From Ecdyonurus torrentis (lineage: Eukaryota; Arthropoda; Insecta; Ephemeroptera; Heptageniidae), in the NCBI GenBank assembly GCA_949318235.1, contig OX439130.1, forward strand, positions 43,227,040-43,291,039: a stretch of 64,000 nt of DNA, in the 5' to 3' direction. Shown piece after piece: positions 39,140 to 48,966 of this stretch. The stretch's first letter is position 1. Every line of letters begins with the position of its first letter. The translations under genes and the position numbers were made by a program. The notes under the pieces were generated by a model. The model saw only the letters and a list, made by a program, of their open reading frames with translations, did no database searches and was not told the origin of the DNA.

Positions 39140-42100
39140 GCTAGTACCACTGCCTGGTGCAAAATGCTTGCATATTTTAACCAATAAATTTAAATTAATT
39201 TTTGTAATTCTATTGTTAAGGGAGTAGGGTACCGACCTTATATCTCAAAATTTAGATGTGTTTTAGATCTAAAATTGGTGTCATTGCGTAGCTTAGGGTC
39301 ACACCTAGGCATGATAAAAATTTCATGACGTTTGACCGTCCCGAAAATAAGAAAAATGTTGTTGAAATTAACATTTGGGCCTTATAAGCTTAAAATTTTA
39401 AAAAATCATATAAAATTAATTTGCACAATGACCTCCCAAAATTTTTATATATTTGAAATTCTCTTAAGCTGAAGTATCATTGTGCAAAATTTCAGATTTT
39501 TTTGACGAGAAAACTTATGAGTCTAATGGCCGACGTCAGTCCCCTACTCCCTTAAGTGGTTATGTTTTCCTCCTTAATTTTTCTATTTTATTCAATAATC
39601 ACTCATGGTGTACAACATAACATAAATTTACAAAATAAGAATATTAAATTAAATACATACATTAAGGGTTGTCTTTAGATGGCTTGTATCTCAAAATCTA
39701 AAAAAGAAAACTTCTTAATTTTTTGATGTCACCTCAAACTTAATGATAAAATTTTCAATACCCGTGACAATCAGATAAGAGAGAAAATATTTATTGAAAT
39801 TTACTTAAATTAACATGGCCTCTTATGGGACTTAAACTTCAAAATATCATAATTCAAAATCTAGCATGGTGACCTCCCAAAACTTTTACATTTTTGGAGT
39901 TGCCTTAACCTAATGTATCACCATGAAAAATTTCAGATTTTTCTTTACGACTTTTTAATCAAATCCCGTAGTAGCTGATTTCCCAACTTAAACATTATTC
40001 TTGAGCATATGCCGTTAGACTAATGCTACAATTAGTACATTTCAGCAAATGATATTGATCACATTGCTCACCACACAATTTACATTTACATGAGGTACCA
40101 CACTCGTGGTACAGTACTCTTTAATTACGCAAATCTTATGGTGAAAACCGTGCACTGCAAATCTAGTGAAAATGTGCCTATTTTTAGAGTTTAGATTTTT
40201 TCAATTAACATTATTAAAGGCCGTGGTATTATTGATAAGTATTTGTGTGCATACCTTGCACACTTTCTATTACCCTTCCAATTTAAAATAACTTTTATAT
40301 AGCCTTTTTTATTTTTTCCAAAGTGCAAGTTTGAAAATGATTTACAAGCATTGTCACAGATAAGGTGAATGTTTTGAATTTTATTAACATCCTAAAAGTA
40401 AAAACTAATATAAAAATTGAATACCCGACCTGATTAAAAAAATGTTTCCTTAATGTTACAGAGGACAGACTCCTGCAGATGCAGAGTTTAATTTCCTGGA
40501 TCATGCTAAAAGACTTGAAATGTATGGAGTTGACCTTCATCGAGCTAGGGTAAGGGTAAGATCCTTTTAGAATCTCTTCTAGAAAACACCAACATTTCCC
40601 TTCTCTAACTTTTCTATACCTTGACGTAACCTCTGTCACCCACCTTACTTTATCTACCTCTTGCCTCTCTTTGGTACCCAAACATAAGCGTACAATGTTT
40701 ATGTTGACTCAAATGATGTTAATTTTTACTATCTTAATAACAGGATAATACAAATAAAGAAATTCAGCTGGGTGTGACTTCTATTGGACTTGTAGTTTTC
40801 CAGAATAATATTAGAATCAATACATTTTCTTGGTCAAAAATTGTCAAGATTTCTTTCAAGAGGAAACAATTTTTCATTCAGCTACGCAGAGAACCAGTAA
40901 GTAATTAATATTTATTATTATTATTTTAATTGGCAATACATTACATTTATACGGAGATTTATTCATGTGATTCTTCATATAAATACTGTATACATATATA
41001 GCATTTCTATTAGATAAGAAGAATGCAATATTATATTGCTATATCTTAACTGGTAAATAATGCTTGTCTTTTGCTGCTAATTGGTATGCATTTTGTTTAG
41101 AAGGAAAACATTTTTGGGAACATTTTATCCCAAGTCCCAATTAACTATAAATAAATAAGATAATCTTTGCCGTTTATCAATTTTCAATTCATTGTACTCT
41201 ATTCTGTCTACCTTTTACTCTCTATTATTATGATATTTTTTACATTATTATTAATTTTGTTAAGAAGCATTTATTGTTATTTTTAATTTTTTAGTACAGC
41301 ATTAACTTAATCTACAGTAATTAATCTCTTTTTTTTTTCTTTTTTTTTTACTCTACTTTGTTTAACAATTAAATTAAAGAAAGATTTATGGATAAGTTTT
41401 AACATAAATCATCATATTTTTTTAGTCTGAAGACTATGATACTCTTCTTGGTTTCAACATGGTGAGCTACAGGTCATCTAAAAACCTGTGGAAGTCTTGC
41501 GTAGAACACCATACATTCTTCCGTCTACATACTCCTAGAGCAAGGGCAAGACGTTTTGTCTTCTCTCTTGGCTCTCGTTTCCGTTACTCAGGTCGTACAG
41601 AGTTTCAAACTGTCGAAGAGAGCAAGCGACGAGCGCGTCTTGAGAGAACATTCATCAGGTAATTTTACCAAACTAGATTTAAAAAATACTTATTTTGTAT
41701 CTTTTACAATCAAATGCATCAATGTAATTTTATACATTTATTTAGGTTAATTTAGGCTAGCATCAATGCACGTAGTAACAAACTGGAAACACATTAAAAT
41801 TTAGCAAATCAGATTTTTTTTCTTTTAAAAATTAAAATCAATTTAAGGAAAAAAACATCGAGGTTAGGATCAATATTAAAGAAAAGGATAGAATAACCAG
41901 CAAGGGCCTTACCACAGTAGAAGTTCTATGGAGAGGTCGAAGTCTCGCATGGCATAGTGTTTTGTTATAAAAAAGTTCATTTTATAACTGAGAGCTTTCG
42001 TCATATATTAATGACATTATCAATCAAAGAAGAAAATTACTTGAGCACATCACCGAGCAGTGTCTTGTCTTGTACTTGTCTTGTACAAGACAAGACACTG

Positions 42101-45100
42101 CTCGGTGATGTGCTCAAGTAATTTTCTTCTTTGATTGATAATGTCATTAATATATGACGAAAGCTCTCAGTTATAAAATGAACTTTTTTATAACAAAACA
42201 CTATGCCATGCAAGACTTCGACCTCTCCATAGAACTTCTACTGTGGTAAGGCCCTTGCTGGTTATTCTATCCTTTTCTTTAATATTGACTTTAAAAATTA
42301 AAATCCTTTTTTATCATGGTAGCTGTATAGTTGTGATTTTATTTAGTAGTAATTTATAAGATTACATACAGCTCTGTTAATCACATAACCTTGTAATTAA
42401 AATTCTATTAAAAATATTCTTAAAGTAAATAAATAAGTAAAAATGGTATTGCATACTATTTGGGTCTACTTGGTAGCTTTCATGTGGTTGAATAATTTAA
42501 AGCTAAATGGCACATGTACTCTATACATGCATTTTTAAAAGAACTGCCTATGGTATTTTAGAACTTTTTTTATATGTAACCATAGCCATACACTAAAGTA
42601 GACACTGGAGTGAGGTCTATAAAAAAAAAAAAAAAAAAAGTGATGAGGTGTGCACAAGTTGTTACAACCAATCATAGTGCTTCTAAATGTGAGCTGTTGA
42701 AAAAATAAGAGCTGCTATCACCATTTGATCAGAAAACGATGGGTCACTGTAGAGAACAATCTAAAGACTACAAAATTTGTTTCTTACATTGATGCAGTCA
42801 GTATTGGGAGTATTAATGATGTTTTAGATCTCCCAGCAGGAAGTTTGCTCGCCAGACAGTACCACAACCTCCAGAAGAGAAACTTAAGCTGGTATTACCC
42901 TCTACTAGAACTGCTCGTTCGTTTGATAATAAAGTTCAGTCTTTGGGAGCAAGGGAGCCAAAGAAAGCATGGGAGGATGGTCTACCATCTGATGAGTAAG
43001 TTGAACTGCAAACATTGATCTAGTTTGACTTGTATATTTGATAAGTATATTTATAGTTTAGTGTCAGTAAATTACTCTATTGGATTTGATTTTACTGAAA
43101 TTTTCATTATAAACTACAATTATGATATAATTCCAAGGTCACTTCCTTGTTCAATTCAAAAACGTCTTTATTAAGGCAAAGGGTAAGGCAAGATTGCCTT
43201 TTTTATCCTTAACCTTATTCTATACTAATATCATACATCAATGTAGATATCATATTATCATATATCATATCAGTTTAGAGAGCACTAAATAACAGAAAAG
43301 AAAAATGTTGCCAGTAATAGTTATCACAAAGTGTTGTTATTGAAAATAGTTGAAGGCTGGTTATTGAATTTAATGTTAACTGCTTTGTTGTTTCAGTGAG
43401 GGTGGATTTTTAGACCGTGGAGAAGTTCCCTTTGCCCCAGTGGTGCCACCACGAGCTGTCTATCCTGATGACGTCCCTGAATCTGAGAGAACCAATTTTG
43501 AGATCCCTCCTTACCTAGAGACTCAGGTATGTACTGTTCAAAGCTACTCAGTTTAATACCAATTGAAGTATACTATTATCATGTAGTATTATATTAAAAT
43601 AGAAAGGGTTTTACATTATTAATTTATTGCAGGATGATTCTCTGGTGACAATACGTATCCAACCTGATGACCAAGGACGTTTTGGTTTTAATGTGAAAGG
43701 AGGCTCAGACCTAGGTATGCCAATCCTTGTGTCCAGAGTGGCTCCCAATACTCCAGCTGATCGATGTTACCCAAGACTCAATGAGGGAGACCAGGTAACT
43801 AACTTCTATTTCTAAATTTGAAAATTATAGGATATAGAAAATTCTGATACTCAACATTTTTTTTTCAAGGTATTGCTAATCAATGCTCGAGAAGTAAGTG
43901 GTCTTGCCCATGATCAAGTAGTGAACCTCATCAGGACATCGCGAGACTCTCAGCCAGGGGGAGAGTTAGTACTCACTGTTAGGCCTAATGGTAAGTCTTG
44001 ACTTTATATCTTTTAGTAAAAAAAAATATATAGGCCTATATATATATTTATGAATATGTAAGTAGACTATACGCATGTTTTATTATAATCTTTTTTGAAA
44101 AATGAAAAATTATTAGAGCATTAGTTTAGAAGTTAGAATTTAAAATGATAGTTAAATATATAGGCACAGGGTTGGGATGTCTCTAATTTCAAATACAGGA
44201 GGCGGAGATCTGAAGAAAATATGGGGATAGAGCACAAAATGGTAAAGTAGCACCAAATTTACTCTTGGCTTTATAATGGCTTTGCCATTTAGTAGAACTT
44301 GTCACTGACGCTGGGCAGAGGGCTCAAAGTGTTAGTTAATTTAAACTTAAATTGTACTTAGTACAGTATGTTCTTTACCATTACAAAAGAAGACTTTGAA
44401 TTAGTTTTTCTTAAAGCACTAGAGTAAAAGTGAAAAAAAGTGACCTATGTTATCAGCAGTTAACCTTAAGATAAAGAGCAAAAGTTTAGAGTGAGTGATG
44501 ATGATTGCAGTGTATGAGGCTGGAGATGCAGAGGAGCCTGCCTTCCAGTATGTGCTTGACGTGCCACACGTCCCAGCAGCAGTACCACGTGCTGATGCCC
44601 TTGCAGAGTCTCTCCTGCTCCTAGCAGAGGGACTTGAGAGTGGCGCGGCCATGGCGCAGTTTGAACAACTCTATCGAAAGAAACCAGGCCTTGCGGCAAA
44701 TGAGTCCAAGAAACCTGATAATGCTGCTAAGAATAGATATCGAGATATATCTCCTTGTAAGTATTCATTGAATAATTTTGTTCATTTGCACTTTGTTTAA
44801 ATTTTGAATAGCTATTCCCAATCATTACTAATAATTCACCAATTGTTATAAACATATAAGTTGATTGTAGATGTTAATTTTATGATAGTGCTGTATAGTA
44901 GGATAATAATGTATAGTAAATTGTAGTATTGTAATCATAATAAATCTGAAACATAATATTAGATATTAGGAAAAAATCGTCTGTGCGATAGTTGATAATA
45001 TATAAAAGATTTGATAGAAACACATAGATAGATTAGGAAAAATTGAGGAATGGGAGATAGTGTGAGCTTATACACTTATACAGTGACGCGAGATAGAGAA

Positions 45101-48100
45101 AATATTCTAACCCAGGCCGAAACAAAATGCGTCGTATGTAAAGTGGCCCAAATTGCTCTGTAGAAAGCGAGCTTCCTTAAATAAATAAGGGAATTTTGGC
45201 TTGCATATTGGTTTGGGCGGTATGAGCATTGCGCATAGCACACTGTCATTTTCAGCACCTCATATCTCTAGCCATGGACAGCTGTTTCGTCCTTACTGGG
45301 ACTCATCAGCATGGCGAGGAGAGAGAAGCCTCATGCCCTCTATTTTATCCCGCTATTTCTCATCTTTTACTTTTTATCCCTGGCTTGCAACTTGGTTTGG
45401 CGGTTTGAAGTTTGAACAGTGCGCGCGCGTCTGGAATTTTCCGCGCCTCACTGACGACGCACGGCCGCGGGTATAAATTGCCGCAGCCCAGTCAGTCAGG
45501 CACTCAGTTCTCTTCCAGCCTTCAAGGAGGCTGGAGGTAGGGCATGAGGCTTCTCTCTCCTCGCCATGCTGATGAGTCCCAGTAAGGACAAAACAGCTGT
45601 CCATGGCTAGAGATATGAGGTGCTGAAAATGACAGTGTGCTATGCGCAATGCTCACACCGTCTAAACCAATATGCAAGCCAAAATTCCCTTATTTATTTA
45701 ATGAAGCTCGCTTTCTACAGAGCAATTTGGGCCACTTTACATACGACAAAATTCAAAATTCAAAATTCATTTCTTTCATCCAACATACATAACACAATAA
45801 AATGCATTAGTTTAGGTTATTGCCATAAATGACAATGTAGAAATGATTGTCAATAACATATAACATATACATTTACAAATAAAACAAATAAAGAGAAAAC
45901 AACATTACAATGTACAAAATTAAATTTGTATTTAAATTGTGTCATCATTCATGTATTCATCAATTGAGTAGTACTGCTTATTTAATAGGAAAACTTTTAG
46001 CTCTTTCTTAAATGCTAATAAGTTATTTTGTTTTCTCATATCCAATGGCAATTTATTATAGATATTTAGACAACTGCAGAAAGGACCTTTATTATACATT
46101 TCAGTTCTTTTATATATACTTCCAATTTTATTTGTATTTCTAGTATTATGATTATGATTTATTTCATGGCTTTTAAAAAACTCAATATTATGTTTAACTT
46201 TCATAGCACATTCCATGATAAAAACACAGGGTACAGTTAAAATATTTAAAATTTTAAAAAGATCTCTACACTCAGCTCTAAATTTAGCACCACATATTAT
46301 GCGTATGACTTTTTTTTGTAGTTTAAAGATTCTATTTGCATCGATGGAGTTACCCCAGCAAACCACACCATATTTAACATGACAATGAAAATTAGCAAAA
46401 TACATAGATATTAAACAATCAATTTGACTTTCATGCTTAAGTTCTCGTATTGCAAAAATTGTAGATGCAAGCTTTTTAGAAATATAATCAATATGCTCAC
46501 ACCATCTTAAATTTTCGTCAATTATTATGCCTAAAAATTTTGTTTTCTTTGCAATTTTAACGGTTTCAGACTCGCATTTAACTTCATTTAAAGTATCATT
46601 TTTATTTCTTAAATTTTGAAATTGTAATATTTCTGTTTTATCAACATTTAATTTAAGACCGTTTTGATTAAAATAATTCTTTACCTCAGAAATAAGTGAT
46701 TTAATATTTTTTGTAAGAATGGTGTTGTTTGGTGCAGTAACTTTGAAGTTAGAATCATCAGCATAACCAACAGGATGAACCGAGTCATCAACATGTAATG
46801 GGAGGTCATTTATATAAATTAGAAACAGAATTGGGCCCATTAATGAGCCTTAGATAACAGAATGATTTATAGTTTTATTGTCCGATTTATAATGTACCTC
46901 CTTACCATCTTCTAGCTTTGTAATATGAATATATTGTTTTCTGTCTTTTAAAAAGGATTTTATCCAACTATAACTATTTCCCCTTATCCCATATGATTGA
47001 AGTTTTTGTAATAAAATTTCATGATCAACTACATCAAAAGCTTTTGATAAATCCAAAAAAATACCGGCTGTTTTTTCTTTGCCATCTAAACTTTTTAAAA
47101 TACTATCTATTAAGTCAAATATTGCTGATTCAGTTGATCTTTTTTTTCTAAAACCATGCTGAAAGTTATTTAAAATTTTTGAATCTTCTAGAAATGATAA
47201 AAGCCTAAACATATAGGCTCTTTCAAAAATTTTTGAAAAAACAGAAAGCAAATTTAATGTTTAAAGCAAATTTTGTTTCGGCCTGGGTTAGAATATTTTC
47301 TCTATCTCGCGTCACTGTATAAGTGCATAAGCTCACACTATCTCCCATTCCCCAATTTTTCCTAATCTATCTATGTGTTTCTATCAAATCTTTTATATAT
47401 AAACATAATATTAGGATATTCAAGAATGAGGAAGTCTACACGAAGTTAACCCCTAGGTTTGAATACGTCATTTGAAAGAGAAAAAATAGCAGATAAACTT
47501 AGCATAGGCAATTACCTGGAAAATTGATATTTTATTTAATAAAAGAAGAAATAAAACATTTCAATTCCCAACCCTTTGCTGACTATGACGTCATTTGTTT
47601 ACATCCAATTTTCAATTGTCTTCTGGATTTCATGCAACTGCTACAAATTCAAAAAATTTAACGGCTAACGGCCGACTTTCAACAATGGGATCGTCTGAAA
47701 TCCAGAAGACAATTGAAAATCAGATGTAAACAAATGACGCCATTGTCAGCTAAGGGGTGGGAATTGAAATGTTTTATTTCTTCTTTTATTAAATAAAACG
47801 TCAATTTTCCAGGTAATTGCCTATGCCAAGTTTATCTACTACTTTTTCTCTTTCAAATGATGTATTCAAACCTAGGGGTTAACTTCGTGTAGACTTCCTC
47901 ACAGTGTCACTAAAACACTTAAGTTCACCATTTTTGGTCAAATCAGATTTTAAACATTTGTACAAAAATATTTGCTACATTAAAATTACATTGTTTATGT
48001 TGTTACGTGCAATTTAGTTACACTCAAGAATGGCATTGTCAATCTATGTTTAATGTGTTGATAATGTAACTGACATTTTTGTGTACATAATTTGTAAGTG

Positions 48101-48966
48101 TGAAAACAAGTTACTAACATTGTAACTTTCAGATGATACTACGCGAGTGATTCTCACTGGTGCAGAAGGAGGAGATTATATCAATGCCAATCTGATAAAT
48201 ATGGAGATTCCAGGCTCGGGGATCATCAACAGATACATTGCTACTCAAGGTATGTATGCCACATACAGGTTATTACTTTTTTATTACAAGCTACTTATAT
48301 TTTATTTTATTATTATTGTGTTTCATAGCAGTAAAATTTTAAATTTAATTTAATCTTGCTATAAAAAGTCATGTGATACTGTGTTTTATCAAGGGGATTT
48401 TTTTCTTCCATTCAATCCAGCATGAAACAAAAATGCAGATACCCCTCTTTTTTTTTTCTTTTTTTTTTAATCTAATGCTTTTATTAATGGCAATAATTGC
48501 ACTGCAATATTAAAACACCATACAGTCTGGGGGGGGGGGGGGGGGGGGGAACTTTCCTAATCTTCCAGTTACATACTTGATTTTAAAAGTTATAAAAATA
48601 TAAATGTAACACTTTACAAAGTGTTGATATTCTGTGTTGATATTCAGGTCCATTGCCGAGCACGGTGCTTGACTTCTGGCAGATGGTGCTGGAGGCCCAG
48701 AGCACGCTGGTGGTGATGCTGACAACAGTAGTAGAGCGAGGTCGTGTCAAATGTCATAAGTACTGGCCAAGTCTTGGAGAACCACCCTTAGAGTTAGGAC
48801 ATTTACATCTGTCCTGCTCACATGAGACCGAAGATGCAAGCTTTGCCTTCAGAGAGTTTCTGCTCAAGAGCTCAGTGGTGAGAACTTATCTGTTTGCAAT
48901 AATTTGTATTGTTTTCTATTTACATATCATATACTGTACATAATACTTAGCAACATAATGCAATAT

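Follow-up and report, generated by a model that had tools for sequence, protein, structure and literature searches.

The DNA analysed here was a stretch of 64,000 nucleotides from the mayfly Ecdyonurus torrentis, hereafter called the window. A PTPN3/PTPN4-like gene contained an inverted-repeat element in one of its introns. This intron extended approximately from 44757 to 48125 on the plus strand, as judged from the flanking open reading frames (ORFs) and from splice ends read by eye. The plus-strand ORFs on both sides of the element read as PTPN3/PTPN4-like exons. For the phosphatase exon, the best PDB matches were PTPN3 and PTPN4 chains, and the PDZ exon and the splice ends of the host gene were assigned by eye. 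These flanking exons supported the intronic setting proposed in the initial annotation. In addition, two other features of the window were recorded. An ORF resembling C1D (Sas10/Utp3/C1D domain) was 67% identical to its match in the mayfly Ephemera danica, the top hit among four, the last of which came from an ostracod. A hairpin at 42000-42158 had 76-nt arms that were 100% complementary with a 7-nt gap, and microRNA models scored below threshold.

An intact type I hammerhead was found at 45271-45315 on the minus strand by Rfam and by pattern match. In cmscan, RF00163 matched minus 45315-45271 with 39.2 bits against a gathering score of 34 (E 2.1e-6), and the match spanned model positions 1-45 of 45. 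This covariance-model search had been proposed as a check in the initial annotation, and its outcome was above threshold. With a score exceeding the curated threshold and an intact core, the motif belonged to the type I hammerhead ribozymes. The motif, the order of its parts, its strand and its coordinates had all been given correctly. It consisted of stem I GCCAUG/CAUGGC, stem II GUCC/GGAC, loop CAGUAA, GAAA, ACAGCUGU and UC, and the predicted cut site was between 45277 and 45276. A strict pattern (CUGANGA, 4-bp stem II, GAAA, UH and 6-bp stem I) matched once in the 64-kb window and not at all in 40 random sequences of that length from a first-order Markov model. Full intramolecular pairing of stem III (ACAGCUGU) was impossible, with at most 2 pairs around an AGCU loop. 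The outer stem I extension CCUC/GAGG was, by eye, not retained in the related hammerheads compared. The recurrent extension in those relatives was CUCU(CU)/(AG)AGAG, also by eye.

A mirror copy of the hammerhead was present at 45563-45607 on the plus strand, detected by pattern match and below the gathering score. The initial annotation was right about the single motif that it described, but this inverted second copy was not mentioned there. The change of G12 to A (GAAA to AAAA) was the sole difference between the two copies over the 39-nt search pattern. The single Rfam match of the mirror copy was to HH9, with 33.8 bits against a family threshold of 52, and it was the only other hammerhead match listed in a lenient Rfam scan of the window. 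Because G12 was changed to A, the mirror hammerhead was predicted from its sequence to be dead. The intact hammerhead was antisense to the PTPN3/4-like gene, and the G12A copy was sense.

An inverted repeat of 342 bp held the intact hammerhead in its left arm (44998-45339); its right arm was at 45539-45747 plus about 47268-47400. The arms aligned over 342 columns and were about 97% alike. A 14-bp target-site duplication, AAACATAATATTAG, bordered the element at 44949-44962 on the left and at 47401-47414 on the right, both read on the plus strand. The left arm (44998-45339, minus strand, delimited by the arm alignment) started in the leader and ran through the intact hammerhead and the body into a one-sided tail of 35 nt (44963-44997, minus strand). 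This tail formed the 3' end of the minus-strand copy and was absent from the other arm. The first part of the right copy (45340-45747, plus strand) comprised the upstream region, TATA box, leader, G12A hammerhead and body, and the rest of the body followed at 47268-47400 (plus strand, left border ± about 2 nt) without a tail. The TATA box, TATAAA, was at 45472-45477 and an Inr-like TCAGTT was at 45504-45509, with its A at 45506. Both were on the plus strand, and a similar layout was seen by eye in relatives. The left copy began about 33 nt past the initiator, inside the leader, and carried neither TATA box nor initiator. The promoter-like sequence belonged to the copy bearing the G12A hammerhead, opposite the intact one.

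The palindrome was interrupted in its right arm by a truncated non-LTR retrotransposon fragment (45748-47267, minus strand, right border ± about 2 nt). Its reverse transcriptase was in two open pieces, each of which matched RVT_1, and a repeated TTCAAAA-type stretch was present at its left border. With head-to-head copies, a tail at one end and a target duplication, the element had the anatomy of a Penelope-like insertion. The element in the window was not itself tandem. A search of the element against a plasmid collection, an ill-suited set, gave no match. A second palindrome (47427-47632 / 47696-47901) adjoined the element in the same intron, and its 206-nt arms were 94% complementary.

Related copies were surveyed in the genome of 503,193,034 bases in 117 contigs. 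When 408 bp of the right copy served as the query of a similarity search, in which 40 of 752 candidates were scored, at least 52 matches were obtained. Thirty loci were cut out, and 27 of them were distinct, the window's own included. The loci form a biased sample, because resemblance to the window or to the hammerhead determined their choice and L010-L022 came from the first 100 places of a genome listing. Head-to-head elements were found at 18 of the 27 distinct loci (window included), and nine loci were single-orientation or unclear. Exactly one tail was present in 17 of the 18 head-to-head elements, two tails were present in 0, and L027, with none, was the exception to the one-tail rule. 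For this count, matches below 75% identity were dropped, a truncated end was scored as lacking a tail, and the right end of the window element appeared to be cut at the reverse transcriptase fragment. If tails were independent and had even odds, at least 17 of 18 elements with exactly one tail would be expected by chance about 7 times in 100,000. Of the 26 other loci, 16 had target duplications of 9-15 nt and seven had 6 nt or less; the candidates at L038, L040 and L046 were not counted, being of low complexity or ambiguous. At L037, a copy in one orientation only was truncated at its 5' end and had a target duplication.

All nine of the same-orientation junctions that were picked joined unit to unit via a common spacer of 65-80 nt. 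Unit length was about 640-655 bp in the window type, 676 bp in a second type (L013) and 888-901 bp in a third (L011, L016). By eye, the second and third hammerhead types had a layout like that of the window type. The shared layout consisted of TATA, initiator, hammerhead, a one-sided tail containing TTTTTTCCTAAT and a target duplication. Allowing up to 3 mismatches, the genome held 109 hammerheads of the window type, 116 of the 676-bp type and 1196 of the 888-901-bp type, and reversed-pattern controls gave 0 for each of the three. Tail matches numbered 671 genome-wide versus 3 for the control. Neighbours were examined at 300 places, the first 100 in the list for each type; for the commonest type, this list covered contig C1 alone. 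Among these 300 places, inverted neighbours within 2.5 kb were head-to-head in 44 of 44 cases and tail-to-tail in 0. Direct neighbours numbered 15; the spacing equalled one unit for 14 of them (665-673 or 886-904 bp) and was 2256 bp for the other.

The hammerhead was more conserved than most of the unit. It ranked 2nd of 531 45-nt windows across 14 diverged copy fragments and 5th over all 36 copy fragments. In the 14 fragments below 95% identity, the mean mismatch of the hammerhead was 0.022 and that of the tail 0.038, compared with 0.085-0.113 in the other large parts; some 30-nt stretches outside the hammerhead and tail were also near 0.04. By pattern, the core was intact in 27 of 34 sampled hammerheads and broken in 7. 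For the window type, the core was intact in 55 and broken in 45 of 100 listed hammerheads, where G12A was present in 31 and the C to T partner of the same CpG in 8. G12A was found at 2 of 100 listed places of the 676-bp type. The stem II U-A pair was replaced by G-C in 4, by A-U in 1 and broken in 3 of 100 listed copies. These pair changes were scored from the 100 listed copies and by eye; the MAFFT family alignment misplaced the stem II of one family. The transition frequency at CpG sites was about three to four times that at other C or G positions, and CpG decay showed no overall bias between the strands (25 C-to-T, 17 G-to-A). A single inherited dead lineage as the source of G12A was not supported. 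On a tree for which 26 of the 40 short loci fetched passed an overlap filter, G12A was scattered: it was present at 15 of the 59 tips and required 11 changes, whereas shuffling gave a mean of 13.6 and a minimum of 10.

Penelope reverse transcriptase ORFs were also present in this genome. The fragment L013:2214-3266, beside a 676-bp relative, had 295 homologues, and among the 120 listed, many carried RVT_1 and PF26215 and some carried PF01541. A Pfam scan of the fragment itself gave no domain. At least 116 Penelope matches were obtained in the genome (scored, from 1290 candidates). Many were 100% identical, and open frames reached 915 aa. A tandem Penelope array with a 2775-bp period and 846-aa open frames was found at L053 and C12:32148249-32157563. 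Since many copies were 100% identical over the compared stretch, this family is probably young. The Pfam scan of the 846-aa frame of L053 gave RVT_1 alone and no GIY-YIG domain; from the homologues and by eye, we infer that the family has a GIY-YIG endonuclease. When the 846-aa ORF was compared with 95 fetched loci and the window, a comparison in which a distant Penelope could be missed, L013 was the only match, as a neighbouring separate element. No autonomous Penelope-like element with a single ORF for reverse transcriptase and GIY-YIG was found in the window or beside the unit in the fetched loci. By eye, the tail of the 2775-bp Penelope was unlike that of the hammerhead units, and it is therefore a candidate helper only. 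An Rfam scan of this Penelope gave no hammerhead. On the minus strand of the L053 UTR, after the Penelope stop, CUGAAGA, a GAGUGC/GCACUC stem and GAAAAC formed a hammerhead-like series with no stem I (by eye). L054, with two tails 2509 bp apart, was rejected as a helper; it contained copies of the 676-bp family and had no Penelope match.

The locus contained a head-to-head pair between duplications and a tail at one end, relatives followed that rule, and tandem units were found elsewhere in the genome. We consider it likely that the locus arose by a single insertion from a gene-less, non-autonomous retroelement family, whose unit combines a TATA/initiator promoter with a minimal type I hammerhead and with a tail marking a start of reverse transcription. 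Two such starts, at the end of the tail and immediately ahead of the tail, would lay down copies from the opposite strands of one staggered AT-rich cut. Transcripts of tandem copies would be cut into units by paired (dimeric) hammerheads, and copying would be performed by a Penelope-like enzyme encoded elsewhere. It is possible, and we propose it only tentatively, that the units are retrozymes mobilised in trans by a Penelope enzyme, mostly with two starts at two fixed sites, one per cut strand.

Published descriptions of Penelope include inverted pseudo-LTRs that are mostly head-to-head, with an optional tail on one and with TATA and initiator (PMC3846280). The Anolis Penelope enzyme is described as cutting and extending both target strands, with two internal starts bordering the tail (PMC11167929). 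Because this published anatomy matches, the layout of the hammerhead units was already known for Penelope elements (PMC3846280, PMC11167929). Head-to-head layout and one-sided tails are the Penelope repeats' own and thus do not alone prove a separate family. The unit might be the pseudo-LTR of an autonomous Penelope-like element, with the window as a solo inverted pair. TATA plus initiator, an inverted copy, a tail and a duplication are present as in Penelope pseudo-LTRs, and the hammerhead coincides with an AUG, as it does in Anolis Penelope. However, in the window copy the frame from this AUG spanned, by eye, 14 codons before closing, all 9 picked junctions passed from unit to unit through the 65-80-nt spacer, and the 846-aa Penelope ORF, in a comparison that could miss a distant Penelope, was beside the unit at no fetched locus, its L013 match being in another element. 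This origin is unlikely on these grounds. A foldback or MITE-like DNA transposon carrying a hammerhead by chance would account for the long inverted repeats and target-site duplications, but we regard it as extremely improbable. The ends were unequal, with one tail in 17 of 18, and the duplication length varied from 9 to 15. L037 was also a 5'-truncated single-orientation copy with a duplication, as target-primed reverse transcription predicts.

A different matter was whether the hammerhead acts where it lies. In the modelled isolated RNA of the intact copy, stem II and five of the six stem I pairs had probabilities >0.95, the core-adjacent stem I pair was near 0.2 and stem III was 0.0. The predicted monomer fold paired GCUG with CAGC in place of stem III. 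This predicted folding fits minimal hammerheads that may be active as dimers (PMC7761336) or when assisted by proteins (PMC11167929). In the modelled whole-locus RNA of either strand, every hammerhead pair had a probability of 0.0, and the same result was obtained for the minus-strand locus RNA without the reverse transcriptase fragment. The whole-locus RNA was predicted to lock the motif in the 342-bp duplex, which makes self-cleavage at the locus doubtful. An antisense hammerhead that trims antisense RNA of the host gene would agree with the intact core and with the stem II and stem I pairs of the isolated RNA. Against it, no TATA box was seen by eye on the intact side, stem III was unformed in the monomer model and the whole-locus transcript is predicted to bury the motif, and such activity is very unlikely. 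The initial annotation's cleavage of the minus-strand transcript at this locus was accordingly left without support. The ribozyme here is most likely a silent passenger, and other copies of the hammerhead family may cleave.

The earlier assignment to minimal type I hammerheads of the Penelope-associated sort in a mobile element was borne out. The likely gene-less family resembled the Penelope-like elements of Adineta vaga (PMC3846280) and Anolis (PMC11167929) in its head-to-head copies, its short target duplications and an optional tail, described there as 30-40 nt, on one copy. TATA and initiator were as described for Adineta Penelope (PMC3846280), and the hammerhead was as described for Anolis Penelope (PMC11167929). 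Unlike those elements, no reverse transcriptase-endonuclease ORF was found in the unit, and tandem units were directly joined. The family shared ORF-less tandem repeats, type I hammerheads and target duplications with the metazoan non-LTR retrozymes described in PMC7229834. It thus consisted of ORF-less tandem units with a type I hammerhead, as metazoan retrozymes do, but its units of 640-901 bp were outside the range of about 170-400 nt given for them (PMC7229834). It also differed from them in the TATA/initiator-like promoter, seemingly absent from retrozymes according to a 2020 review (PMC7761336), and in its Penelope-style insertions, which were inverted and one-tailed. The pDo500 satellite of Dolichopoda cave crickets (PMC2837043) is, by its description, also an insect hammerhead repeat, but it is satellite DNA. 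Gene-less tandem hammerhead units in a Penelope layout were not found in the literature searched, which did not extend to the likeliest sources, Cervera and de la Pena (2014) and Lunse (2017).

Penelope elements have been described as strong or likely candidate movers of animal retrozymes (PMC7229834, PMC7761336), and the role of Penelope hammerheads has been called a mystery (PMC7761336). The motif in the window is a real ribozyme motif, ordinary in kind and probably silent at its locus. It points to a system of three families in which retrozyme-like units are linked with insertion of the Penelope type. In this one genome, the insertion signature of Penelope is present on many hammerhead units that have no ORF, and the listed places follow a strict orientation rule. 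Since this signature is on numerous ORF-less units in one genome, the link between retrozymes and Penelope is directly testable. If true, mobilisation in trans with two starts would be a missing link between hammerhead retrozymes and the Penelope machinery, and it would explain the head-to-head arrangement and the one-tail rule.
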